The notes beneath the pieces were generated by a model that saw only the letters and a program-made list of their open reading frames with translations, ran no database searches and had not been told where the DNA came from. The translations under genes and the position numbers were made by a program. DNA of 64,000 bases from Zoroaster sp. YZ-2022 (Eukaryota > Echinodermata > Asteroidea > Forcipulatida > Zoroasteridae): the NCBI GenBank assembly GCA_029582265.1, contig CM055816.1:21695843-21759842 (forward strand). The letters run 5' to 3'. Positions 1 through 60,362 of the stretch are shown here, in pieces; the first letter of the stretch is position 1; each line of letters opens with the position of its first letter.

Positions 1-545
1 ATGACTTATAATAATGTCCTTTTCCCAACATTTTGGGAAACATTTGAAAAGTGTATGACGCGCTATATTTGTAATTTATAAAAAAAAATCATTAACTTTC
101 AAGAAAAATTAAACAGAACTTAAAATTAAATGTATACAACGTTTATTCATGGCATTTTCTTGTTAAAACCTGCCAAAATAAGGAAGATGTTGTTCGATGA
201 AAATCGACAGTTCTGATAGACATTGATACAGCCAGGACGTAGTAAGGATATCGTCATTGGAGCGATTATTGCGGATTATTGTGAATATAGAACCCGCCAG
301 CTATCGGACGAGCACTGGGCCGAACAGAACACTGCCACACTGGAGGGCCCACCTGTGGCCCAGCACTGGACCAATAACGCTTCATTCTGGGACAATATGA
401 CATAACTGCAAAGGCCAATACAGAAATTCAATACAAAACATTAAAAAGTCATTAAAAAAATCATTACAAACTCCTAACAGACAAAGTATTGATTGATGTT
501 TAACAACAATTATGACATACACAAATTATGATACAGTTCGCCGCA
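1..545. other. Left edge of duplicated copy A, no gene seen
   Basis: This stretch matches 42,992-43,545 closely and in the same orientation. The window starts exactly on duplicated sequence, so the true left boundary of the duplication may lie outside. A short open frame at 223-405 is not kept in copy B, where it is interrupted and an opposite-strand frame is longer. I therefore do not call a gene. The 200-400 section is richer in GC than its surroundings and may belong to an unrecognised dispersed repeat. Confidence 0.6.
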
Positions 546-918
546 TAATAATAATAATAATAATAATAATGTGTGGATTTATATAGCGCACGTATCCACC
601 AACTAAGTGGTGCTCAAGGCGCATTATATTATTATCCCTGCTCATAAGGCTCATAAGGCTCATAAATCATTCCTGAAACCATCTCAGCTCCCTGGGGAGT
701 AAACAGCTCAATTGCTGCCATTTCTAGCGCATATAGAGCAAACTAACTCTGCCTTCACAGGTACCCATTTAACCCCTGGGTGGAGAGAAGCAATTATGAT
801 TAAGTGTCTTGCTCAAGGACACAAGTGTCACGGCCGTGATTCGAACCCACATTATGTTGCTAACACCAGAACTTGAATCCGGTAAGCTAGACCGCTCGGC
901 CACGACACCCCACGACAC
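546..918 (-). mobile_element. tRNA-derived SINE, long subtype, with (TAA)n tail
   Basis: Read on the minus strand, the element starts with a tRNA-like head: a box A (TGGCCGAGCGG) near 893-903 and a box B (GGTTCGAATCA) near 838-850. A body follows, then a tail ending in TATATAAATCCACACATTA and repeated TTA triplets at 546-570. Such elements are transcribed by RNA polymerase III and moved by a partner LINE. The same body and tail recur at 35,771-36,157. Copy B lacks the insertion (near 43,545). About 64 bp of right flank are duplicated in tandem beside it in copy A, so the exact target duplication is unclear. Confidence 0.85.
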
Positions 919-2145
919 CGCATGAATGTATCAGTAGTTAGTATTGAGTGGGGTGCACCCATACAGCTCGCCGCATGAATGTATCACTAGTTAGTATTGA
1001 GTAGGGTACACCCATACAAACCAATTGTAAATACAAAATGATCAAAAATCATTAAAAAATAATTTACACAAAAACCAAAATATTTAGTGATGTCTAACTT
1101 TATTTTATATTCAATTTAATGTGTATACTCCAGAGGCCCGTCCAATTATTCCAATCCCAAAGGAAACCATCCTCTACACTATAGAGGCAAGCATCCATTT
1201 TGAGAAAATGGTCCTACATTTCTAGGACAATTAGGACCAGGGCATCAAAATTACTCACACTTGGAAGTCAAGGACCCCAGGTCATGATATTGGACCATTT
1301 TTACAAAGTCCCTCAAATGTATATGATTATGGACCTCAAATCTTACTTTTACAAACAAAGTGATGGCATACAAATTAAGAATAATGATCTCGGCAAATGA
1401 ATTTGGTCACTACCGTATTTTATTTTGTAAGGTGCACCCATAATATACCAACAATCATGAATCTCGGCGCATTTACGTCATTGTTCTTCTCTGTAATTCC
1501 TTATTCAGTTTAATGACAGTGTGTTCTTTTGTGTCGTGTTCTCACCGTTCATTTACCATGCAGCCTAGATTCTCCCTGCCTCCAGTAAATACATCCAAGG
1601 GCGTAAATCCCGGGGGATGGGGGATAAATCACCCCCCATATTTTGGACTGGGTGGGATGGTCCATAGAATCATCCACCAGAATTTTCCATGCGTTGAAAA
1701 AATAGATATAATAAAAATACACATGCATAAGTTCAAGCTTTACCGTGCACTCAAATTTCAAAATCATCCCCTTCCTCCATTTTTCATTTACGCCAGTGAA
1801 TACATCATTACTTTCATTGTAAACTATTGATAATCTTAAAAGAAAAGAAAAATACAAAATAAGTCTGTTTTCAGTAAGACCTTATTGTTTACAAGCCAAC
1901 TGTGGGGAGGAGATAAATGGGCTAAATGAGCAAATAAATGAGGTTTTTGGATTTTAATTCCGTAATTGAATGTTATTGTTATTCAGGTTGATCATGTGAT
2001 TGCAATTGAGTCTCAAACCATTGGTGGATCGGGGAGGGGGCGAGGCGGTCATATTCCCCCTTTATATCATCATACATGTAATTTTACCATGTACATTTTT
2101 GTATGCGATTCCTATTTTTCGTCGTGTTTCCACCATTCATTTACC
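919..2145. other. Noncoding part of copy A, collinear with copy B
   Basis: This aligns with 43,545-44,765 at high identity. The short frames at 1,200-1,400, 1,513-1,830 and 1,966-2,208 have shifted limits in copy B and overlap frames on the other strand, so I reject them as genes. From about 1,500 on the sequence belongs to dispersed family R, with its 70-bp motif near 1,555-1,590 and the phrase TCTCAAACCATTGGTGGATC near 2,010. Confidence 0.55.
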
Positions 2146-2148
2146 TTA

Positions 2149-2915
2149 TGGCCCTGTCACACTGTTGCGTATGAGAGAAACGTAAGAGTTGCGTATGAAA
2201 ATTCATAATATAATTTTCATACGCACAAAAAGCCCTTGAAAATACAGAATTGTGCGTATACTTACCGTATTGAACCTATGAGTAGCGTATGGCAAGCGTA
2301 TGACCAGCGTATGGCCAGCGTACTCTGCGTATGGCTAGCGTATGAGGTCCACGAAGAACTGAAGATAAGCTAGAAATGGGAGCCTATATATACACTTTAT
2401 CAAAACGCTGGCAATACGCTGGGGATACGATGGCCATACGCCAATAATACGCTAGTTGTACGTTAAATACGTTACTCAATCGTCAGGCATACGCCAATAT
2501 GTCTATATACGTTGCAGATACGTCAGACATACTTTAGAAGTACGTTACTCATGCGCTATCAATGCGCTATCAATACGCTAGCTGTACGGTACACCTTCAT
2601 GCCAACGTATGGCAACTTATGTCCAGCGTACTCGACCTATGAGTAACGTACCTATATCGTACCTCTAGCGTATTCAGCGTATGCCTAGCGTATGCTTAGC
2701 GTATTAACCATACGTCCGCATACGCACAAAATGTTTAAACATGCTTAACAAATTATTTCTGCTTCAGCGTATGCCAGCGTATGCCACCGTGCTTGAAACG
2801 TATACAACCTATGCCTAACGTACCCCTAGCGTATGTCAGCGTATACCAGCGTATGAGTGATAATTTCCATACGCTGGCATAGGCTAGTACGATACGCAAC
2901 AGTGTGACAGGGCCA
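2149..2915. mobile_element. Non-autonomous Harbinger-like DNA transposon, copy A only
   Basis: The 767-bp element starts TGGCCCTGTCACACTGTTGC and ends with the inverted form, giving terminal inverted repeats of about 25 bp. It is flanked by the triplet TTA at 2,146-2,148 and 2,916-2,918. Copy B has the uninterrupted sequence with a single TTA at 44,762-44,764, so the ends and the 3-bp target duplication are exact. A TTA or TWA duplication with such termini fits PIF/Harbinger. The interior has no transposase frame. It is filled with dozens of GCGTATG-type short repeats in both orientations (for example 2,280-2,345, 2,400-2,580, 2,640-2,870). Confidence 0.85.
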
Positions 2916-2918
2916 TTA

Positions 2919-4057
2919 CAGCCTGGATTCTCACTGCCTCCAGTTAATACATCATTACATTCATTGTAAACTATTGTACAACAATAAATTGAATTCCTTT
3001 GCTAACTTAGAAGGAAAATGATCTAGACCAGTTTCAGTTTCCTAAGCTCAGGGTAAGACATCCCAAAGGTACAAGTGAGGCACAGGTTTACTGACAGGCA
3101 AAAAGGAACGTAGCTTAGAGGAGTCTATGTGGTTAAATGCATCTGACACACTGGCAAACATTACGTCATTGCATCATTTTGTGTTTATCTAAGTTTTCAG
3201 CATTATGTCCACGATGAGCTCAGTTTTTTAAATTATTCATTTTTAGTTACTAACTTTCAAGTGAGACAGAAAACTAAAAATGAGTAGTGAATGCAAATAA
3301 ATACACACAAATTAAAACAATTTATCACGCGATAAAAAGAAGTACTCAAGTTTATACGGTTCGACAACGTTGTGCAGCACTGTGTGTACGCATGCGCCTT
3401 CATTGCCATTCAACAAACGTTCTTCAGCAGATACACTCTGGTCTACTATGGTGGCTCTGAAAGGACCGTGAGGTGTAAAAGAGAAGGAGAACGTGCAATT
3501 TCATTAATAGCACGAGATGAACTTATGATTTCACCCCTTGGAATTGATCCAGGATACAGGGTGATTCCCCCATGTATGTATAACGGCGGGGGGGGGGGGG
3601 GTAGTAATAGTAATATACCCCAAGTAGTAATACACCCCGAGTAATTATCGTTCACAAAACAATATATTATAACAATAAATATTTAAATTTAAAACAAAGC
3701 GCACAAATTATTACAATATTCCACTTCATTTTGATAACAAATTCACACTTAAAAACCTTCCCTTGACGTGTCCATAGTCTCACGTATAGTCTAGCAAGAA
3801 ACAAACTTTGAAATTTAGTAGCAATTTTGTTTGTGGAACAAAATGAAAGCCACCAAATGTTAAATTAAAATAATGGGTGTCGGTAGGGCTTGGGGTGGGA
3901 TGGGGAGGAGTGGGTCAGGGGTCCTGCTTCTTCCTTCACCCTCCCTGCTCTTCCAATCGTCACAAGAAATCGTACCCATTGACAGCCCCTGCGTTTGATC
4001 GTAGTTTCATGTAATACTGAGGATCATTGGCAGATCGTGGGAGCTAGGGGCAAATCA
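2919..4057. other. Noncoding part of copy A with a poly-G run
   Basis: This aligns with 44,765-46,225 apart from the SINE inserted in copy B. An open frame at 3,372-3,644 starts with GTG, and its 15-nt length difference from copy B (45,224-45,481) keeps the frame. It has no ATG, no recognisable domain, and a long G run at about 3,587-3,601, so I do not call it a gene. The empty target site of the copy B SINE is at 4,025-4,043. Confidence 0.5.
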
Positions 4058-8197: not shown

Positions 8198-8381
8198 ACT
8201 CATCGGTCAATGCTGTGTTTCATTTCTACATTGCGCCGTGTGCAGTATAGTCGTGTTTCAATCAAACAGTTGGTCGACTGATGATAACGAAATACTTGAT
8301 TGAATATAAACTGATAGTTCTACTTATTTTATTGAATTTACCTTGAAACCTTTTCACCCGTATACAAACAATACATTGAAG

Positions 8382-9419
8382 ATGACGCAGCAAGTACTCT
8401 TGATGTGCGTACTCCATTTCAAAATGATGTTCGTGTTTATAGTACCACTGATATCACAAGCGGTAAGCTTGGGAAGTCAATGCGGTGGGTTTGCAAACGA
8501 ATATCTCCCTGCAGATAACCGGGCACTCAAAAACTTCACGTATGCCAAGAAAACTGTACCCTATTACGTCATGTGCGGACGAGACTGTAACATGGATAAG
8601 AACTGTAAGTCATTTAACTTCTATAAATGCAATAAACTGTGTGAGTTAAACAACTCCACAAGGTCTGAGTATCCTGAATCATTCGTTGAAGATCAAGCGA
8701 GTGTGTACTTCGATGAAAATGAAGACACACCTCTCTTCTCATTGCCTGATAACGTTCGCTACAGAAGTTGTAAAGCGCTAATGAAGGCATGTTACTACAC
8801 AAGTGGTGTCTACAAGATCTACCCAGACGGATTCAGCAACGGTCTCCCAGTCTATTGTGACATGGACACTGATGGTGGCGGGTGGATTGTGTTTCAGAGC
8901 AGAATGGACGGCAGTGATGGCTTTTATCGCGACTGGAGTCAATACAGGTCTGGCTTCGGTTATCTTAGCGGGGAGCATTGGCTAGGCAATGATAACTTGG
9001 TGAGTCTGACCTCTGATAAATCACACGGGACATGGGACCTCCGCATAGATCTCACAGATTGGAGTGACGGTAGGGCATTCGCGAAATACACGGATTTCCA
9101 AATCACTGGTGAGAAGTACACACTGAATTATGGCGACTACGATGTGAGCAGCACTGCTGGTGACTCTCTTTGGTATCACAAGGGAAGACCCTTCACAACA
9201 AAGAATAATGACAATGATAGACAGTCAGCGGACAATTCTGCAAAACACTTTGAAGGAGCCTGGTGGTTTTATGAAGGATGTTACCACTCTCACTTAAATG
9301 GTCATTATTACCCAAATGGGCAGTATCGGAACACCAAAGGCATTGTGTGGTATCACTGGCATAGAAGCCACTATCCTCTCAAAGCATCCAGCATGAAAAT
9401 GCGTGAAACAAACGTGTAA
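8382..9419 (+). CDS. Secreted PAN/apple-domain fibrinogen-related lectin, copy A
   Basis: This 345-residue protein probably binds sugars or other ligands outside the cell, like ficolins, tachylectin 5 and FREPs. Residues 1 to about 28 are a hydrophobic signal peptide. Residues 34-90 form a PAN/apple-like domain with cysteines at 34, 65, 69, 75, 83 and 87. Residues 128-341 are a fibrinogen C-terminal domain with VYCDMDTDGGGW at 157-168, GEHWLGNDN near 197, AGDSL near 259 and the calcium-loop-like DND at 277-279. The family cysteine of the NCA motif is Ser286, although Cys300 remains, and an unusual Cys137 is present. The frame stays open upstream to a TTG at 8,343, but the first ATG is 8,382, in an AAGATG context. 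The stop overlaps GTAAGT (9,416-9,421), a perfect splice-donor motif, so a further exon is possible. The paralogue is at 48,705-49,763. Confidence 0.88.
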   Translation: MTQQVLLMCVLHFKMMFVFIVPLISQAVSLGSQCGGFANEYLPADNRALKNFTYAKKTVPYYVMCGRDCNMDKNCKSFNFYKCNKLCELNNSTRSEYPESFVEDQASVYFDENEDTPLFSLPDNVRYRSCKALMKACYYTSGVYKIYPDGFSNGLPVYCDMDTDGGGWIVFQSRMDGSDGFYRDWSQYRSGFGYLSGEHWLGNDNLVSLTSDKSHGTWDLRIDLTDWSDGRAFAKYTDFQITGEKYTLNYGDYDVSSTAGDSLWYHKGRPFTTKNNDNDRQSADNSAKHFEGAWWFYEGCYHSHLNGHYYPNGQYRNTKGIVWYHWHRSHYPLKASSMKMRETNV

Positions 9420-17019: not shown

Positions 17020-17052
<33 letters not shown>

Positions 17053-17720
17053 TGTGGACTTATATAGCGCACGTATCCACCAACTAAGTGGTGCTCAAGG
17101 CGCATTCTTTTTTACGTGCATTACACAACACACGGGACCTACGGCTTTACGTCCCATCCGAAGGACGAAGCAATTATGGTTAAGTACCTTGCTCAAGGAC
17201 ACAAGTGTCACGACCGGGGCTCGAACTCACACCCTGCTGCTGGCAACACCAGAACTTGAGTTCGGTGCGCTAGACCGCTCGGCCACGACACTCCACTTAA
17301 AACATGCTGGACGTAAGCCACTTTAATAAAGGCCCACGTGGCTCGGCCTATTGTACTGGATCTGGACTGTATCTGACGCCATCAAAGGTTACCGTTAAAG
17401 CAAATCATTGGTAGCATTTCTAAGGTTTATAGCAGGCATTCAAATTGACAAATCCGCACCGTGGGGGGGGGGGGGGTGGGCGGGGGTGGGCGGGGGTTGG
17501 CGGGCACTTCCCAACCATCTCTTTTAAAAATTGGTCATGTAGCCTTGAGTTTTTCATAAATTATTCAATCCAAAAATCTCCAAAATATGCACAAATCTGT
17601 CAAAACTGCTATTTAAAAAAAAAATTAATGAACATTTTCAGAAATTTCCTTCAAATTGTCCGAAATGATTTCTAATTTTATTATAAAAATATTTTTAAAT
17701 CCAAATTAATGTTTCGAAAC
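16180..17720. other. Segment inverted relative to copy B
   Basis: The 16,180-16,540 end matches the reverse complement of 58,460-58,845, and the 17,340-17,720 end matches the reverse complement of 53,680-54,080. The flanks on both sides (before 16,180 and from about 18,000) match copy B in direct orientation. One copy therefore suffered an inversion. Copy A's version holds a SINE (17,022-17,293) and a G-rich run (17,462-17,506). Copy B's version is about 3.5 kb longer because of a Transib-like element and other sequence. Confidence 0.85.
17022..17293 (-). mobile_element. tRNA-derived SINE, short subtype
   Basis: On the minus strand it has a tRNA-like head (TGGCCGAGCGG box A near 17,275-17,286; GGTTCGAGCCC-type box B near 17,217) and a short body with GGACGTAAAGCCGTAGGTCC. 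Its 3' end, GTGCGCTATATAAGTCCACA followed by TTA triplets, is shared with the long subtype. The partial copy at 35,591-35,760 has the same short body. Confidence 0.85.
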
Positions 17721-17835: not shown

Positions 17836-18593
17836 TAATGTGTAATTTTCATCCACTAAACTGCGATCGTTGTGAAGATATCGATCATTTAGTGACGCAA
17901 ACTCGGTTGAACACTAAGTCGAAAATGTTAAAATACGAAGGTCCCCAAAAAGTGACATTGACGTTCTTTGCTGTTCTCAGAATTTCAATAAAATACTAAA
18001 TGCAGTATGATATGAACGAAATAAAAATTGTTTTGAAATCAATTAAATTAAACGCAACAGTATATAAAAAGACATCCTGGATTGATTGGATCACTAAAAC
18101 GGCGTGAATTTGAATGTTCTTGAACGAAAATTAACAAAAAGGTTTTGACATTGGACGGGAAAACCTATATTATTATCCCCAGACAAAATACGATGTCTCT
18201 GGCAGGTATATAGCCCGCCCTCTATCACATTATTGTTAGGGGTGGATTCAGCGTAGGAGAAATAACGCACGTAATACTAGCGTATAAATCTACTCATATG
18301 ACGATGAAAATGGTGAATTGCACCCTTAGCACATCATACGTTATTTGTTTGCTCCCTTGTTTGGCAGTGTAACCCCGCCCCCTTTATCGACACCCAGGAT
18401 CCATCCCTATAATATTACATTATCGTTTTACACCAACAGAACAATAATTGCCCACGTCTACCATAGTCACGTTCCCTATCTACAGGCGGTATCATTATGA
18501 TTAGAGCCATCACATCGTAAGGAACCTGTCTATCTACTGGTTCAGTTGTACATGTGCCTCATTCTGATTCTCATTGACTTGTGTACAGGAAAG
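17836..18593. other. Noncoding block, collinear with copy B from about 18,000
   Basis: From about 18,000 the sequence matches 58,849 onward. The section around 18,470-18,560 (CACGTTCCCTATCTACAGGC) recurs three times in the window, near 18,469, 56,713 and 59,331, so it is a dispersed or locally duplicated unit. I see no gene. Confidence 0.45.
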
Positions 18594-18934
18594 CAAAGAT
18601 GGCTGCGGTTTATTAACTAAAGGTCTGTTACACCTATATGATGAAAGGATTCGGTTGACAAGAGATTTTGTTGAATTTGAGAATGGTTAGTGATAAGAAC
18701 CATCATATCAGTAATTCTGACATAGTCCTTAAAATAATCAAGCTGGCGAACATACTTAACCCCAATGTCAATAACCTTAGTTTTAGGAACAGAAGCCTGA
18801 CACATACATATGTAAATCTTGTGGTGTTTTACCGATCTAATTTAACACTGTCTGATCACCTCACAGGCCTTGAATTTCGTCCTCCTAGGATCAAGGCAAT
18901 TTCCATCAAAATGGATAATATGAGGATAGTATAG
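18594..18934 (+). other. Conserved open frame downstream of a YY1-like motif, unknown
   Basis: AAGATGGCTGCGG at 18,596-18,608 matches the well-known YY1 core promoter motif. About 70 bp downstream an open frame (18,668-18,934; first ATG at 18,683) is shared with 59,534-59,821 at high identity: roughly 70 residues align, with few replacements and some silent changes. A third, broken copy lies at 57,115-57,190. No domain is recognised. It could be an exon of a small gene, a retrocopy or a repeat. Confidence 0.25.
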
Positions 18935-48523: not shown

Positions 48524-48704
48524 ACACATCGGTCGATGCGTTTCATTTCTACATTGCACCGTGTGCAGTATAGTCGTGTTTCAATCAAACAGTTGGTCGA
48601 CCGATGATAACGAAATACTTGATTGAATAAAAACTGATAGTTCTACTTATTTAATTGGATTTATCTTGAAACGTTTTCACCCATATACAAACAATACATT
48701 TAAG

Positions 48705-49763
48705 ATGACGCAGCAAGTACTCTTGATGTGCGTACTCCATTTCAAAATGATGTTCGTGTTTATAGTACCACTGATATCACAAGCGGTAAGCTTGGGAAGT
48801 CAATGTGGTGGGCTTGCAAACGAATATCTCCCTGCAGATAACCGAGCACTCAAAAACTTCACGTATGCCAAGAAAACTGTACCCTATTACGTCATGTGCG
48901 GACGAGACTGTAACATGGATAAGAACTGTAAGTCATTTAACTTCTATAAATGCAATAAACTGTGTGAGTTAAACAACTCCACAAGGGCTGAGTATCCCGA
49001 ATCATTCGTTGAAGACCAAGAGAGTGTGTACTTCGATGAATACAACGATACACCTCTCTTCTCATTGCCTGATATCTCCTTTGCTCACAACAGAAGTTGT
49101 AAAGGGCTAATGGACGCAGGTTACCGCACAAGTGGTGTCTACAAGATCTACCCAGACGGATTCAGCAACGGTGTCCAAGTCTACTGTGACATGGACATTG
49201 ATGGCGGCGGATGGATTGTGTTTCAGCGGAGAGAGGACGGCAGCGTTGACTTCAATCGATACTGGAGTCAATACAAGTCTGGCTTCGGTGATCTAATCGG
49301 GGAGCATTGGTTAGGCAATGATAATTTGGTGAGTTTGACCTCTGATAAATCACACGGGACATGGGACCTCCGCATAGATCTCACAGATTGGAGTGACGAT
49401 ACGGCATTTGCGAAATACACGGATTTCCAAATCACTGGTGAGAAGTACACACTGAATTATGACGAATACGATGTGAGCAGCACTGCTGGTGACTCTCTTG
49501 AGCATCACAACGGAATGCACTTCAGTACAAAGGATAATGACAATGATGAGTATGTGCCGTTAAATTGTGCACAACGCTTGGAAGGAGGTTGGTGGTTTTA
49601 TGCCTGTTACGCATCTCACTTAAATGGTCCTTATTACGCAGATGGGCTGAATCGGTATGGCGATGGAATTGTGTGGATGAGCTGGCCTGGCAACTGGAAT
49701 CTTATCAAAGTATCCAGCATGAAAATACGTGAAATAGTTGAGACATGTAAGTACACCAATTAG
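48705..49763 (+). CDS. Secreted PAN/apple-domain fibrinogen-related lectin, copy B
   Basis: This 352-residue paralogue of 8,382-9,419 has a signal peptide (1 to about 28), a PAN/apple-like domain (cysteines 34, 65, 69, 75, 83, 87) and a fibrinogen C-terminal domain (about 130-343). It keeps the canonical lectin framework: Cys132, VYCDMDIDGGGW at 159-170, HWLGNDN near 201, AGDSL near 261, an aspartate-rich calcium-loop-like DNDND at 277-281, NCAQ with Cys288, WWFYACY with Cys301, and MKIRE at the end. The first 123 residues differ from copy A at five positions, the lectin domain at about 60. The ATG at 48,705 is the first methionine codon; an open TTG lies 39 bp upstream. GTAAGT at 49,747-49,752 lies just before the last codons, so the final residues VETCKYTN may be an intron read-through. 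Likely role: recognition in innate immunity or adhesion, by family analogy. Confidence 0.92.
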   Translation: MTQQVLLMCVLHFKMMFVFIVPLISQAVSLGSQCGGLANEYLPADNRALKNFTYAKKTVPYYVMCGRDCNMDKNCKSFNFYKCNKLCELNNSTRAEYPESFVEDQESVYFDEYNDTPLFSLPDISFAHNRSCKGLMDAGYRTSGVYKIYPDGFSNGVQVYCDMDIDGGGWIVFQRREDGSVDFNRYWSQYKSGFGDLIGEHWLGNDNLVSLTSDKSHGTWDLRIDLTDWSDDTAFAKYTDFQITGEKYTLNYDEYDVSSTAGDSLEHHNGMHFSTKDNDNDEYVPLNCAQRLEGGWWFYACYASHLNGPYYADGLNRYGDGIVWMSWPGNWNLIKVSSMKIREIVETCKYTN

Positions 49764-49921: not shown

Positions 49922-50014
49922 ACATGTTATTTAGGCCTTATATTTTGTGTATAGGCCAACAAAGTGTGTTTCCAACCCTAATTATTTGTTTACAAATAAT
50001 AAAATATAATAGGC

Positions 50015-50890
<876 letters not shown>

Positions 50891-53679: not shown

Positions 53680-54089
53680 GAAACATTAAAAAAAATATTA
53701 GAAATCATTTTAGAAAAGTTTAAGGTAATTTATGTAAATGTTTATTAATTTAGTTAAAATTTTAAGAATATATCGGTTTTAAAAGGTTGTATTTTTTATT
53801 TATTTATTTATTTATTTTTTATAGATTTTTGTATTTAATAATTTAGGAGAATCATTATTCAACACTCAAGGCGACATGACCAATTTGGTTGAAAAGTTGG
53901 GAGACCCAGGTCCTTTTTAAAAGTGATGGTTGGAAAGTGCCCCCCCCCCCCCCCCCCCCAACGGTGCGGATTTGTCACTTTGAATGCCTGCTATAAACCT
54001 TAAATATGCTACCAATGATTTGCTTTAACGGTACCCTTTGATGGCATCGGATACGGTCCAGATCCAGCAGAAAAGACCGAGCCACGTCG

Positions 54090-56610
54090 CACAGTGGGCC
54101 AGGGCGAAACCAAAGTGCGCCAAAAGCGGTCATTTGCGTATATTCCAGATTGTATTTCTTTTCCATTTCGTAGGTTGCTAAGACCCCCTACGACTGTTTC
54201 ACAGTCAAATTAATATTTAGTGACTGTAGAACTGCCTTACAATCCCAAAAACGGGAAAAACGTTTGATAAAAGCCGCTTGCTGGTAACAAATTTAAAATT
54301 GCCATTGTGGGCTTTTGACAGAAGCTATCGTCATGTAAACAGAAGTAATCTACATTACTTGATCTACATTGTTTAAAAATTAAGTCGATTGTAAATTAGC
54401 CTTTTGATTTCATCAGCAAATACTGAGGAATTTGGTTAAATTTTTTTTAAATATAGCTTTTTTTGTTCAGCTATGGTGGAACTAAAAATTCCCGCCGATT
54501 CCCGCCTAAATTCTCATACTTCCCTGAAGCTGAACCTTTCAGTAACATCTTGATACCAAAATTAGCTGCGACCACCTGCGACCTGCGATTTTGTAGCTAT
54601 TTTTGTAAACCCCATCCCAACATTTTTGAACCTTTTTTTGTAACTCGACTGTCAGTAGCGCGCGCCACACAGCGAAAATGACATGACTTGATTATTTCCT
54701 TGCGTCCGCTTCGTAAACAAAGGCAAGTCTTTCGAAATGATAGCCATGATAAACAATTGTGCAGTTAAAATTGTTATCAGTGTCTTGATAGTGGAAAGCA
54801 AGACGTATCTAAAAATAATATTCAGTCAGTAAGCCCCTACTGGTAAATTCGCAAAACAAAAATGATCACAGGTCTACATGAAACATATTGGTGTTAAATT
54901 GATCATGGTATCAAACAAATATTTTGGTCTCATGTGCTATCAAATTAGTAAAATAGTGAAACAATGTCCAAAAATAATTGCTGTCCCTCTGGAAACAAAA
55001 ACAAATCAACTTAAGAATGAATACGAAACAACTAAATGCATTTTAATTATTTTCTCGGTTAATGACAAATAATAAACTGAAACTGTTACAGGTTGGTTGT
55101 TTAATGTATATCTTGATTCTAAGAAAGTAAGCTTGGGCGAAGTCGATTTTTTTTCATCCACAATTTATCGGCAAACATAAATTGCGATTTTCGATAATAT
55201 CGCGATTTTTTTTTCATTCATGCATGATTGCTTTAGAGCCGATAACCACAGGCAAGTACCTTTTACAAGCATCACAATAAATTGCAAATTCGTTTGCGCT
55301 GTGTGTACTTCTGAAGGAGTTCACTTTTGTTTTTCACTTTCAAATGACAGTTGTAATTTTGTTTCCATGGAATCCCTGACTTGACTCACAATCGTGTTAT
55401 CGCCCAAACTTAAAAGTAAGGATACTTTTAGGAACATCTTTCTTACAAGCATTACCAATATTGTATAATGGATTTAAATCACAAACTTCCTCATATTGTT
55501 TAACGATACTTTTATCCTTAAAATAATTGACAGCCGTAACACACACACTCGATTAGTGTAATACAGCCGTAACACACACACTCGATTAGTGTAATACAGC
55601 CGTAACACACACACACTCGATTAGTGTAATACAGCCGTAACACACACACTCGATTAGTGTAATACAGCCGTAACACATACACTCGATTAGTGTAATACAG
55701 CCGTAACACATACACTCGATAAGTGTAATACAGCCGTAACACATACACTCGATTAGTGTAATACAGCCGTAACACATACACTCGATTAGTGTAATACAGC
55801 CGTAACACATACACTCGATTAGTGTAATACAGCCGTAACACATACACTCGATTAGTGTAATACAGCCGTAACACATACACTCGATTAGTTTAATACAGCC
55901 GTAACACATACACTCGAATAGTGTAATACAGCCGTAACACATACACTCGATTAGTGTAATACAGCCGTAACACATACACTCGATAAGTGTAATACAGCCG
56001 TAACACATACACTCGAATAGTGTAATACAGCCGTAACACATACACTCGATTAGTGTAATACAGCCGTAACACATACACTCGATTAGTGTAATACAGCCGT
56101 AACACATACACTCGATTAGTGTAATACAGCCGTAACACATACACTCGATTAGTGTAATACAGCCGTAACACATACACTCGATTAGTTTAATACAGCCGTA
56201 ACACATACACTCGAATAGTGTAATACAGCCGTAACACATACACTCGATTAGTGTAATACAGCCGTAACACATACACTCGATAAGTGTAATACAGCCGTAA
56301 CACATACACTCGAATAGTGTAATACAGCCGTAACACATACACTCGATTAGTGTAATACAGCCGTAACACATACACTCGATTAGTGTAATACAGCCGTAAC
56401 ACATACACTCGATAAGTGTAATTTAAAACGAACAAAAACTCAATATTGAGGCTATAAAGCGTGAATTATCCGCGGTCCGATCAGAAATCAGTATTTTGAT
56501 GACGTCACAAATGTTTAAAAACACTTCCATTCACATCTGCGGGTCCGAAACTCTGGGTGTAATATGCCATCAAAATATTGGAAAATTTGGTTCCACCGTG
56601 GCCCACTGTG
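54090..56610. mobile_element. Non-autonomous Transib-like DNA transposon
   Basis: The left end is CACAGTGGGCCAGGGCGAAA, and the right end read inwards is CACAGTGGGCCACGGTGGAA, giving inverted repeats of about 22 bp. Both flanks carry CGTCG (54,085-54,089 and 56,611-56,615). A CACAGTG-type terminus and a 5-bp GC-rich target duplication are the hallmarks of Transib, whose transposase is related to RAG1. CACAGTG is also the consensus heptamer of V(D)J signal sequences. The 2,521-bp interior has no transposase frame and carries a 33-bp minisatellite at 55,530-56,420. The equivalent site in copy A (reverse complement near 17,330) lacks it. Confidence 0.72.
55530..56420. repeat. 33-bp minisatellite, about 27 copies, each with a hairpin, 297-bp higher-order period
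   Basis: The unit is CAGCCGTAACACATACACT then CGATTAGTGTAATA. In each unit TACACT and AGTGTA form a 6-bp stem around CGATT. The variants GATTAGTTT (55,883 and 56,180) and the following GAATAG/GATAAG variants repeat 297 bp apart, that is nine units. Because 33 is divisible by three and the unit lacks stops in two minus-strand frames, long repetitive open frames appear (to 272 aa); I do not regard them as genes. Confidence 0.95.
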
Positions 56611-58459
56611 CGTCGGTGAGGGCGCCAATTATTCCATTTATTGTTTTACACAAATGGAACCATTATTGGCCACTGTGTATTGTTTTTCCCCCTCACACGC
56701 GTCTAACTATAGTCACGTTCCCTATCTACAGGCGGTATCGTTATGATTGGAGGAAACACATGGTAAGGAACCAGTCTACTGGTTCAGTTGTACATGTGCC
56801 TCATTCTGGTTCTCATAGACTTGTGTACAGCAAAGCAAAGATGGCTGCGGTATAATACTTAAAAATCTGCTGCACATGATGGAAAGATTAGGTTTACAAC
56901 GGATATGGATGTGTAAGATGTGCATTTTTCAAGATGTTTTGGCTAATTAATGTTTGAAGGGGTTCAAATAAGCCTTGCTATAGATGCAAAAAAATCCCAC
57001 TTGTGAAAAGTGTTAAGCCTGCTGCTGTTGGTCGCAACTAAATCTATCAGCTAGAACAATTATGTTTCTTTTGTTTACTACTGTGGGCAATATCAGCCAT
57101 TATAATGTTAAAGTTTTTGTTGAATTTAAGCATGATTAGGGATAAGCCCCATCTTATCAGTCATTCTGACATCTAGTCCTTAAATAACCGTCTGAAAATA
57201 TTATATGTACACTCATAGCCATATCAAGTCCAGTTAAACTTACACTGCACTAATACAACTACAAACATGTGATGGATTTTGCTTTTATTTTAAATTGTTT
57301 GTATTTCATTTGTATAATTGCACACACAGCCCAGACTGTGTTTGGTGTCAGTGACTCAGTTTATAGGGCAATGATATGACAGCAATTCAGATGATATTCT
57401 GCCTTTGAGCGCACTCTTGAGTTCATTTAAGGGGATGAAGTATTTATTATAATTATTAAAGGTTTTTGTCCTAATGTTCTTTGTACACGTCTTTCTTTGA
57501 GTATGCATTTATTGTATGAGTTAGTTTTGCTTATTTAAGAAAACAAAATTTGAACTTCACATTTACCAATGAAAGTTTAAAACTGCTAACAGTATTGAAA
57601 CAAACCAAGAGACATTGATTTGAATGGTTCTGTAAGCTGAATAGTTTAAATTGGGGCGAACCATTGAGTGTTTTTGTATTATTGATTTATAATATTGACA
57701 TGAGAGGTATTGATAATTACTAAAATTATAGTTGGGAACCATTAGAATTTGTTTTACAAACATGCTAAGCAGATTTATAATTATGCTATAATCATCTCTG
57801 TCTAACATGTATAGTCATTCGAAAAAACTGTTAAGCAGATTTATCTGCTATAATGTGATTCCAGTATTTTTTTTTCCGATCAAGTTTTATTTTGAACACT
57901 GAATATGCGTTTTGTCTGTTTTGTCAACTTCAGTTGAGCATTCTATTGTCATTTAACCCAACTCATCGCAAAAACAAGTACGTTCCAAATGAAAGTGTCA
58001 CTAAGTTCATTAAATTCCGTCATTTCGTCTAATTTTGGTGTTGTTTTTTATTTAATATTTAATACAAAGAAAATAAGTTTATACAGGTATGCATTTTTGT
58101 GATATTTAATATTTTAATTCCTATTTGTATATTTTTGGCTGCGATAAGTGAAGCAATAAACCAATAAATAAAATAAAATGAAAGTGTCACCTAAGTGTCA
58201 TAAATTCCATCAGAACCAGTCGCAATCGGTTGATCAAAAATGTCATCAATTGCCATTCATTTGTCGCCATTTTACTTTCAATTCTGAGGCCTGGGTATGA
58301 GATTTTAGAACAGATTTTTGAATGTCTCATTTGCCTAGCGCGTCAGTAGATTACAGGCAAAAGAAAGCAAAAGAAAGGGGAAAAATAAAGGAAAGAAAGA
58401 TAAACTTTGGGAAACGGAAAAATGAGGTTGAAATATTGCAAATTAAGAGGAATGTGTCT
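56611..58459. other. Copy B noncoding part of the inverted segment
   Basis: A unit at 56,640-56,880 with TTCCCTATCTACAGGCGGTA and the YY1-like AAGATGGCTGCGG (56,838-56,850) repeats 18,440-18,610 and 59,265-59,470. A broken relative of the 18,668 frame follows at 57,115-57,190. The rest, AT-rich, shows nothing recognisable. Confidence 0.4.
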
Positions 58460-58845: not shown

Positions 58846-60362
58846 TGCAGTTGAGTATGATATGAATAGAATAATGATACAAATTAATTTGAATGCGACA
58901 ACAGAGAAAAAAGAAACCTTACATGTAGTTTGATTGGAACACTAAAACGGCGGTTTTGAAATTGACCGGTAAAACCTATACTATCTCACTGACAAAATAC
59001 GATGACTCGGACAGGTATACAGCCCACTCTTTATTGCTGTTATTGTTTCATCAGTTTTATTCATTCGATAACAGAGGTGGATTCAGGGTGGGAATAAAGA
59101 TAACACGTAATTAGAGTATAAATTTACTTCCATGACAATGAAAGTGGTGAATTGCACTCTTTCCACATCAATTTATCATGTGTTATTTGTTTGCTCCCTT
59201 GTTTGGCAGTGTAACCCCGCCCCTTTATCGACACCCTGGATCCACCCATGTATTACATTATCGTATTACACCAATGGAATGATAATTACCCATTGTGTAT
59301 TGTTTGTTCCTCACACACGTCTGCTGCAGTAACGTTCCCTATCTACAGGCGGTATAGATATCGTTATGATTGAAGCCATCACATTGTAAGTAACCTGTCT
59401 ACTGGTTCAGTTGTACATGTGTCTCATTCTGATTCTCATAGACTTGTGTACAGGAAAGCAAAGATTGATGTGGTTTATTAAATCAAAGGTATATTACACA
59501 TATATGATGGAAGAATTTGGTTGACAAGAGATTTTGTTGAATTTGAGAATGGTTAGTGATAAGGTCCATCACATCAGTTATTCTGACATAGTCCTTAAAA
59601 TAATAAAGCTAGCGACCATACTTAACCCCAATGTCAATAACCTTAGTTTTAGGAACAGAGACCTGACACATACATATGTAAATCTTGTGGTGTTTTACCG
59701 ATCTAATTTAACAATGTCTGATCACCTCACAGGCCTTGAATTTCGTCCTCCTAGGAGAATAGGTAGGAGAAAGGTAATTTTCCCAAAAGAACTTTTCCAT
59801 TACATCAAAATGGATAGATAGTATAGTTGACATCGTAAAGCATGTAAAGTAGACATGCATGGTCAATTTGCCATGACTTTATTGTTTTTGATTTAAAGCA
59901 ATCATTGCCTCTCCATGCTTCTCAATAGATTCTCATTACATTGAGGTTATATTTGTCTGGTAACCGGACAGCTATTCATAAATTACTATGAGTTTGTAAT
60001 GCACCACACTATTTAAGACAAGAGCCTCATTTTGATTCCAATAGAGAAGTGCATTAGGGAAGCAAAATTTACCATTCTTGGATGAAGTTCTATTTGTCTA
60101 TGAAATGAAAAAATCCACAAAGCAAGATGTTGACTGTCAGGCAGTGTTTTGTAACAAGGGAGTGTTCTGCCTTTTTCAATTAGTTTTATTTGATGTAAAG
60201 GAAAGTTTATTTATTTTCTTGTATTATTGTGATTTGTGTTATGTTTTAAATGTAATTCGTCATTTTGCAGTTTTGATTCCAACTAATATAATAATGGATT
60301 CATTTTATATGCATTTTAAATGCTTCCTTTATTTTCTCCACACTTAAGGGGACAATAAAATC
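58846..60362 (+). other. Copy B block collinear with 18,000-19,450, with the conserved unknown frame
   Basis: The open frame 59,534-59,821 (first ATG at 59,549) parallels 18,668-18,934. The YY1-like motif is decayed here (AAGATTGATGTGG near 59,461). The block ends in CACTTAAGGGGACAATAAAA near 60,343, which resembles a transcript end. No family recognised. Confidence 0.3.

Follow-up and report, generated by a model that had tools for sequence, protein, structure and literature searches.

Transib transposons are among the closest relatives of the RAG1 core, and the RAG enzyme rearranges vertebrate antibody genes. Transibs have been reported in echinoderms, and heptamer-like ends are described as a known trait of these elements (PMC7204232). 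HzTransib from Helicoverpa zea has heptamer-like ends (PMC8289069), and D126, D225 and E436 are given as the catalytic residues of its transposase (PMC6941560). Most Transib families are described as having symmetric ends with the heptamer but little similarity to the nonamer (PMC8289069); 12/23 spacing has been reported for some families (PMC8355894). TransibSU/RAGL from Patiria miniata and ProtoRAG from amphioxus likewise combine an RSS-like heptamer, 5-bp duplications and a RAG1-related DDE enzyme (PMC4411706; PMC7204232; PMC8289069), and pairs of RAG1L and RAG2L are known in Patiria (PMC4411706). The 'Transib seed' idea proposes that a RAG-type enzyme adopted a Transib end as a recombination signal (PMC8355894). 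Among the titles listed in a search of the literature, with Repbase and most subscription papers outside its reach, none concerns the family described here.

The element described here lies in a window, i.e., the entire 64-kb stretch of DNA that was analysed (C1:21695843-21759842), from a 1.0-Gb assembly of 616 contigs. In the following, C numbers denote contigs and L numbers loci in this genome. With a probability of about 95%, the element belongs to a sea star Transib family as a nonautonomous member and would have been moved by the RAG1-related DDE transposase of longer members. It has a GC-rich 5-bp duplication, its inverted ends begin with a CAC that resembles the RSS heptamer, and within the family a RAG1-related DDE transposase without RAG2 is encoded by an element on C17. 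The family adds a member to Transib and is no new system; the window copy, taken as an element, is ordinary. Its parts are listed in Table 1.

Table 1. Features of the element and its flanks, in window positions.
Feature	Position	Strand	Remarks
Nonautonomous Transib element (subfamily A)	54090..56610	.	2,521 bp; no transposase homology detected
Left target-site duplication CGTCG	54085..54089	.	Sequence, and empty sites with a single CGTCG
Right target-site duplication CGTCG	56611..56615	.	Sequence, and empty sites
Left terminal inverted repeat, 36 bp, both conserved blocks	54090..54125	+	
Left heptamer CACAGTG, equal to the RSS consensus heptamer	54090..54096	+	Consensus as reported in PMC8289069
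Second conserved block AAAGTGCGCCAAAA	54112..54125	+	Overlaps nonamer-like CCAAAAGCG (54120-54128)
33-bp minisatellite, 27 units	55530..56422	.	Inside the element
Subterminal stretch, 74% identity to transposase-bearing subfamily B	56477..56550	.	
Right terminal inverted repeat, 25 bp, block 2 lost (net 16-bp deletion)	56586..56610	-	
Right heptamer CACAGTG	56604..56610	-	Sequence
Left flank, belonging to an older dispersed repeat	53900..54089	.	Relatives: 17336-17530 (-), L012, L013
Right flank	56611..56899	.	98% to L012 over 199 bp; repeated at 59246-59539, 18455-18673

The Element and Its Insertion Site

The first 12 bases of the element, CACAGTGGGCCA, are found as an exact reverse copy at the opposite end, and 19 of 22 bases match between the left and right ends as read off the sequence. 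The inverted arms, with the CGTCG duplications included, are 30 nt long and show 87% complementarity. The window contains one 12-base inverted pair that is accompanied by a matching 5-bp repeat in the flanks, and 11 of 100 dinucleotide shuffles have one as well. The window by itself makes the ends a suggestive case only; the genome data are decisive.

Joining the two flanks around one CGTCG gives GAGCCACGTCGGTGAG, which has 55 exact matches in the genome and 123 at one mismatch or less, against 0 for the control. Most or all of the 94-base joined flank, moreover, aligned at 82-90% in the 40 sites scored among 142 candidates. These empty sites, 55 exact and 40 aligned, demonstrate the exact ends of the element and its 5-bp duplication. 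The inverted ends with CACAGTG and the perfect CGTCG duplication proposed by an initial annotation of this DNA, which had been made from the sequence alone, are thereby established; its equation of CACAGTG with the RSS consensus heptamer was correct as well. Within the window, the stretch 17336-17530 (-) was rejected as an empty site, as it matches the left flank alone and then departs, which is why the genome was searched for empty sites instead. This partial copy of the left flank adjoins 17050-17300 (-), by eye a tRNA-like SINE that ends in an ATT repeat.

At the empty sites, the host repeat of the left flank extends into the first bases of the right flank, and this dispersed repeat is common at C1:20-28 Mb. 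L012 has both flanks of the window element as well as the same right-end deletion. L103 has the right flank and the deletion in common with the window copy, and L104 the left flank and the left end. The flanks common to these three loci indicate that the window insertion was copied together with its surroundings.

Inside the element, the 33-bp minisatellite unit has 27 copies, compared to a single copy in 12 of 13 relatives examined and two in L011. A tblastn search of the window with the C17 transposase (E 0.05) detected no transposase homology; the window copy is thus classed as nonautonomous, as the Transib superfamily allows. Because its right block 2 has been lost and its minisatellite has grown, this copy is probably immobile now.

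Copies in the Genome and Target Preference

CACAGTGGGCCA occurs exactly 595 times in the genome, versus 13 times for the pattern read backwards. The places examined are the 100 listed of these 595 matches, all on C1 and C2. At 69 of these 100 places block 2, i.e., AAAGTGCGCCAAAA with at most three mismatches, is present: at the same distance from the end in 64, one base nearer in four and one base farther in one. The other 31 were divided by eye into nine damaged ends, the right end of the window element among them, and 22 other repeats. Taking all 595 matches as element ends was therefore rejected, since these 22 of the 100 listed are by eye unrelated repeats that share the word. One separate dispersed repeat bearing CACAGTGGGCCA is represented by L005, L006, L102, L106 and L145; within it, L006 contains a 395-codon frame with a DDE_3 domain.

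Eighteen paired elements were compared. Their 5-bp duplications, which the initial annotation had suggested checking across copies, are perfect in 13, agree at four of five bases in three (L011, L012, and L019) and are missing in two (L013 and L014). Seven of the 13 elements with a perfect duplication share flanks and are counted as a single insertion, amplified together with the DNA around it. On C2, eight elements (L018-L020, L022-L026) have common flanks round a TACCG duplication, corresponding to one insertion amplified with a host repeat. L013 and L014 lie 15 kb apart at C1:48646072-48669413. The former, a member of family B (see below), shares its left flank and CGTCG with the window insertion (88% over 191 bp) but has no right duplication, and its right part resembles that of L014 (85%).

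To describe the target, 33 distinct flanks of block-2 ends were used, some insertions contributing both of their sides. The five bases adjacent to the end are C in 27, G in 28, any base, C in 29 and G in 23 of these flanks, giving the target consensus CGNCG. An exact CGNCG is present in 15 of the 33 flanks; the entire 64-kb window contains 45. The transposase-bearing element L016 is flanked by CGCCG, and for those at C17, C15 and C3 the duplications are perfect and, in the direction of the element, read CGCTG, CGGCG and CGCCC. Perfect duplications are thus found in three of ten transposase loci with both end positions, and the remaining seven have damaged or shifted ends. Conservation of the heptamer is built into the listed CACAGTGGGCCA ends because they were found via their first 12 bases. 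At the 11 transposase loci that the protein search gave (L016 is not one of them), CACAGTG is exact at 12 of 21 ends.

Architecture of the Ends and the V(D)J Signal

The end consensus consists of CACAGTGGGCCAG, approximately nine variable bases and then AAAGTGCGCCAAAA. Block 2 is located on both ends at nearly equal distance in 15 of the 18 pairs; the other three, like the window element, have a damaged right end. When the first 12 bases of the end are compared with the sequence 21 bp further inward, 10 of 12 agree (shuffle p 0.0014). In our reading, the end comprises a putative transposase-binding motif in two copies, spaced about two helical turns (21 bp) apart.

Compared to other copies, the right end of the window element is missing a net 16 bp that include block 2. 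Judged by their end sequences, the right ends of L012 and L103 likewise lack this net 16 bp with block 2. The deletion explains the poor nonamer match at 12 bp on the right side, which had been observed correctly in the initial annotation, as well as the apparent 23/12 asymmetry of the window copy.

The ends share with the V(D)J recombination signal the heptamer and A-rich tracts near 12-13 and 22-23, but their nonamer is weak, they do not form a 12/23 pair and they belong to a transposon. In the window, CCAAAAGCG, 23 bp past the left heptamer, agrees with the nonamer ACAAAAACC at six of nine bases. Over 43 ends, the mean nonamer match is 4.6/9 and 4.5/9 at spacings 12 and 13 and 5.1/9 and 4.6/9 at spacings 22 and 23, and does not exceed 3.7/9 at any other spacing between 8 and 28. 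The consensus ends reach 5/9 at both 12 and 23, as do 6.7% of random sites with this composition. Since each end has A-rich tracts near both spacings and block 2 is symmetric, a 12-signal and a 23-signal cannot be told apart.

The heptamer and the peaks of the nonamer match near the RSS spacings are what would be expected of working V(D)J-type signals, with heptamer, 12/23 spacer and nonamer, used for programmed rearrangement. However, the match never exceeds 6/9 in any of the 43 ends, both tracts are found on each end with block 2 symmetric in 15 of 18 pairs, and the window copy sits within a dispersed repeat and has a deleted right end. We give this reading next to no credence. From the RSS interpretation proposed initially, the heptamer and the A-rich tracts are retained; the combination of nonamer and 12/23 spacing was rejected, as the matches peak near the RSS spacings yet are weak, the pairs are symmetric and the 23/12 asymmetry is caused by the deletion.

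The Transposase and Two Subfamilies

Searching the genome from the ends, a check suggested in the initial annotation, led to a longer relative: L016, a paired element with protein pieces that match HzTransib (E 6.2e-51 and 4.2e-21). A genome search with one of these transposase pieces gave 30 matches in 15 places, 12 of which are substantial. The element at C17:27157268-27160593 is 3,326 bp long and contains an unbroken transposase frame of 751 codons. This is its only frame of at least 100 codons, whereas TransibSU/RAGL and ProtoRAG encode both RAG1L and RAG2L.

The C17 protein can be aligned to HzTransib (PDB 6pqn and related entries) over nearly the entire solved chain (E 5.6e-102 to 6pqn, residues 195-700), and about 190 residues of the frame precede the aligned part. 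D, D, and E are all kept at chain positions 109, 208, and 419, which in our reading would correspond to D126, D225, and E436 by a constant offset of 17. The sea star family differs from HzTransib in its host and probably also in the exact CACAGTG and in the second conserved block. Among Pfam families, RAG1 included, the C17 protein has no match; it matches ProtoRAG RAG1L weakly (E 0.0017). For a transposase piece of 259 aa, the best named relatives are LOC115927723 of Strongylocentrotus purpuratus (72%) and LOC129266800 of L. pictus (66%), identities over 80% of the piece; both are sea urchin Transib-like proteins.

The elements of C17, C15, and L016 are pairwise 99.1-99.2% identical over 3.3 kb, which indicates that the family spread recently. 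Together with the open frame, these near-identical copies make recent activity of the family likely. A transposase group of approximately 40-50% identity (C21, C15) was considered as separate and rejected, as it consists of decayed family-B copies with 85-95% DNA identity.

All transposase loci examined are of type B at the DNA level. The paired elements of subfamily A, to which the window copy (2.5 kb) belongs, are 1.2-2.4 kb long, save L019 (5.0 kb). Both subfamilies have only the terminal block structure and a subterminal stretch of 69-163 bp (70-76%) in common, and, of 36 bases, the left end of the window element shares 30 and 31 with the two family-B ends. As the likeness is limited to these parts, we infer that subfamily A may have been moved by the enzyme of B, or otherwise by an A enzyme that was lost or escaped detection.

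Ends that start with CAC occur in other superfamilies too, and one A element, L019, contains a Tc1-like transposase frame of 364 codons at 1215-2306 (-), with DDE_3 and HTH_Tnp_Tc3_2 domains. Both would fit a different cut-and-paste superfamily with look-alike ends, such as hAT, CACTA/Chapaev or similar. Yet the L019 transposase is confined to a 2.9-kb stretch that is absent from L018 and is thus taken as a nested insertion, and both the 5-bp CGNCG-like duplications and the Transib transposase carried by elements whose ends are nearly identical to these make such an origin most improbable. The Transib assignment of the initial annotation is upheld by these same duplications and transposase-bearing elements, along with the shared ends. 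In L014, a B element, a reverse transcriptase frame is located inside, which we read as another nested insertion.

RAG-Like Genes in the Same Genome

The initial annotation had also suggested that a RAG-like or Transib transposase may exist in this genome, and both were found. A genome search with the profile PF12940 gave 28 matches, 13 of them over the cut-off (best E 1.2e-109), in nine loci by our count. L060 (C22:3650982-3655652) contains a RAG1-like gene at 1426-3204 (-) with a frame of 593 codons that matches ProtoRAG RAG1L (E 4.7e-150). Beside it, at 3-614 (+), lies a RAG2-like frame in convergent orientation; it includes a kelch motif as well as a PHD finger, and its best solved relative is ProtoRAG RAG2L (E 4.9e-06). 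Further RAG1-like loci on C2 and C1 (L059, L061-L064) are, by eye, of a second RAG1L type; the N-terminal frame of L059 matches the RAG1 importin binding domain and RING zinc finger.

These PF12940 matches and the C22 pair raise the question whether the window element is a nonautonomous derivative of the RAG1L-RAG2L transposons of this genome, moved by RAG1L/RAG2L, the more so as RAGL transposons are likewise reported to give 5-bp GC-biased duplications and to carry RSS-like heptamers (PMC7204232; PMC8289069). Against it, the genes flanked by nearly the same ends as those of the window element encode a Transib transposase, not RAG1L and RAG2L. Moreover, CACAGTGGGCC was not found in L059-L078, a limited test, as these loci from the RAG1 search include weak matches and reach approximately 1.5 kb beyond the match. 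Derivation from RAG1L-RAG2L transposons is accordingly judged very unlikely.

Proposed Mechanism and Implications

For the preferred reading, a member of Transib moved in trans, the following course of events is proposed. The RAG1-related DDE transposase, encoded by longer members at other loci, would bind the two-block ends, with block 2 possibly acting as a second binding motif, and would cut at CACAGTG, thereby excising the element. As reported for HzTransib and RAG, cutting may leave hairpins on the flanks. The excised element would then be joined, with a stagger of 5 bp, to a GC-rich target (CGNCG), resulting in CGTCG on either side. The window's subfamily A is presumed to have been moved in trans by the B transposase. 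The insertion took place in a dispersed repeat and was later duplicated together with this surrounding DNA; in the window copy, block 2 was lost on the right and the minisatellite grew.

In this genome, a family that has spread recently, with exact CACAGTG ends and an open frame for the transposase, occurs next to RAG1L loci and a RAG1L-RAG2L pair. The family is a good natural set for asking what end sequences are required by a Transib enzyme and whether these are recognised by RAG-type enzymes. As a young Transib family with the exact RSS heptamer occurs together with RAG1L-RAG2L genes in this sea star, it is conceivable, although unlikely, that the enzymes act on each other's ends. If so, two-block ends with A-rich tracts would model the takeover of a Transib end as a recombination signal.

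Other Features of the Window

The marine deuterostome origin that the initial annotation had considered is supported, as the closest named proteins are from sea stars. The protein coded at 8310-9419, which contains PAN and fibrinogen domains, is closest, among named proteins, to those of the sea stars Patiria miniata and Asterias, so that the host should be a sea star or a near relative of one. This gene and the one at 48627-49763 are two PAN/fibrinogen genes in a duplicated region that is 88% alike. An AAT repeat of approximately 136 units is located at 49995-50399.
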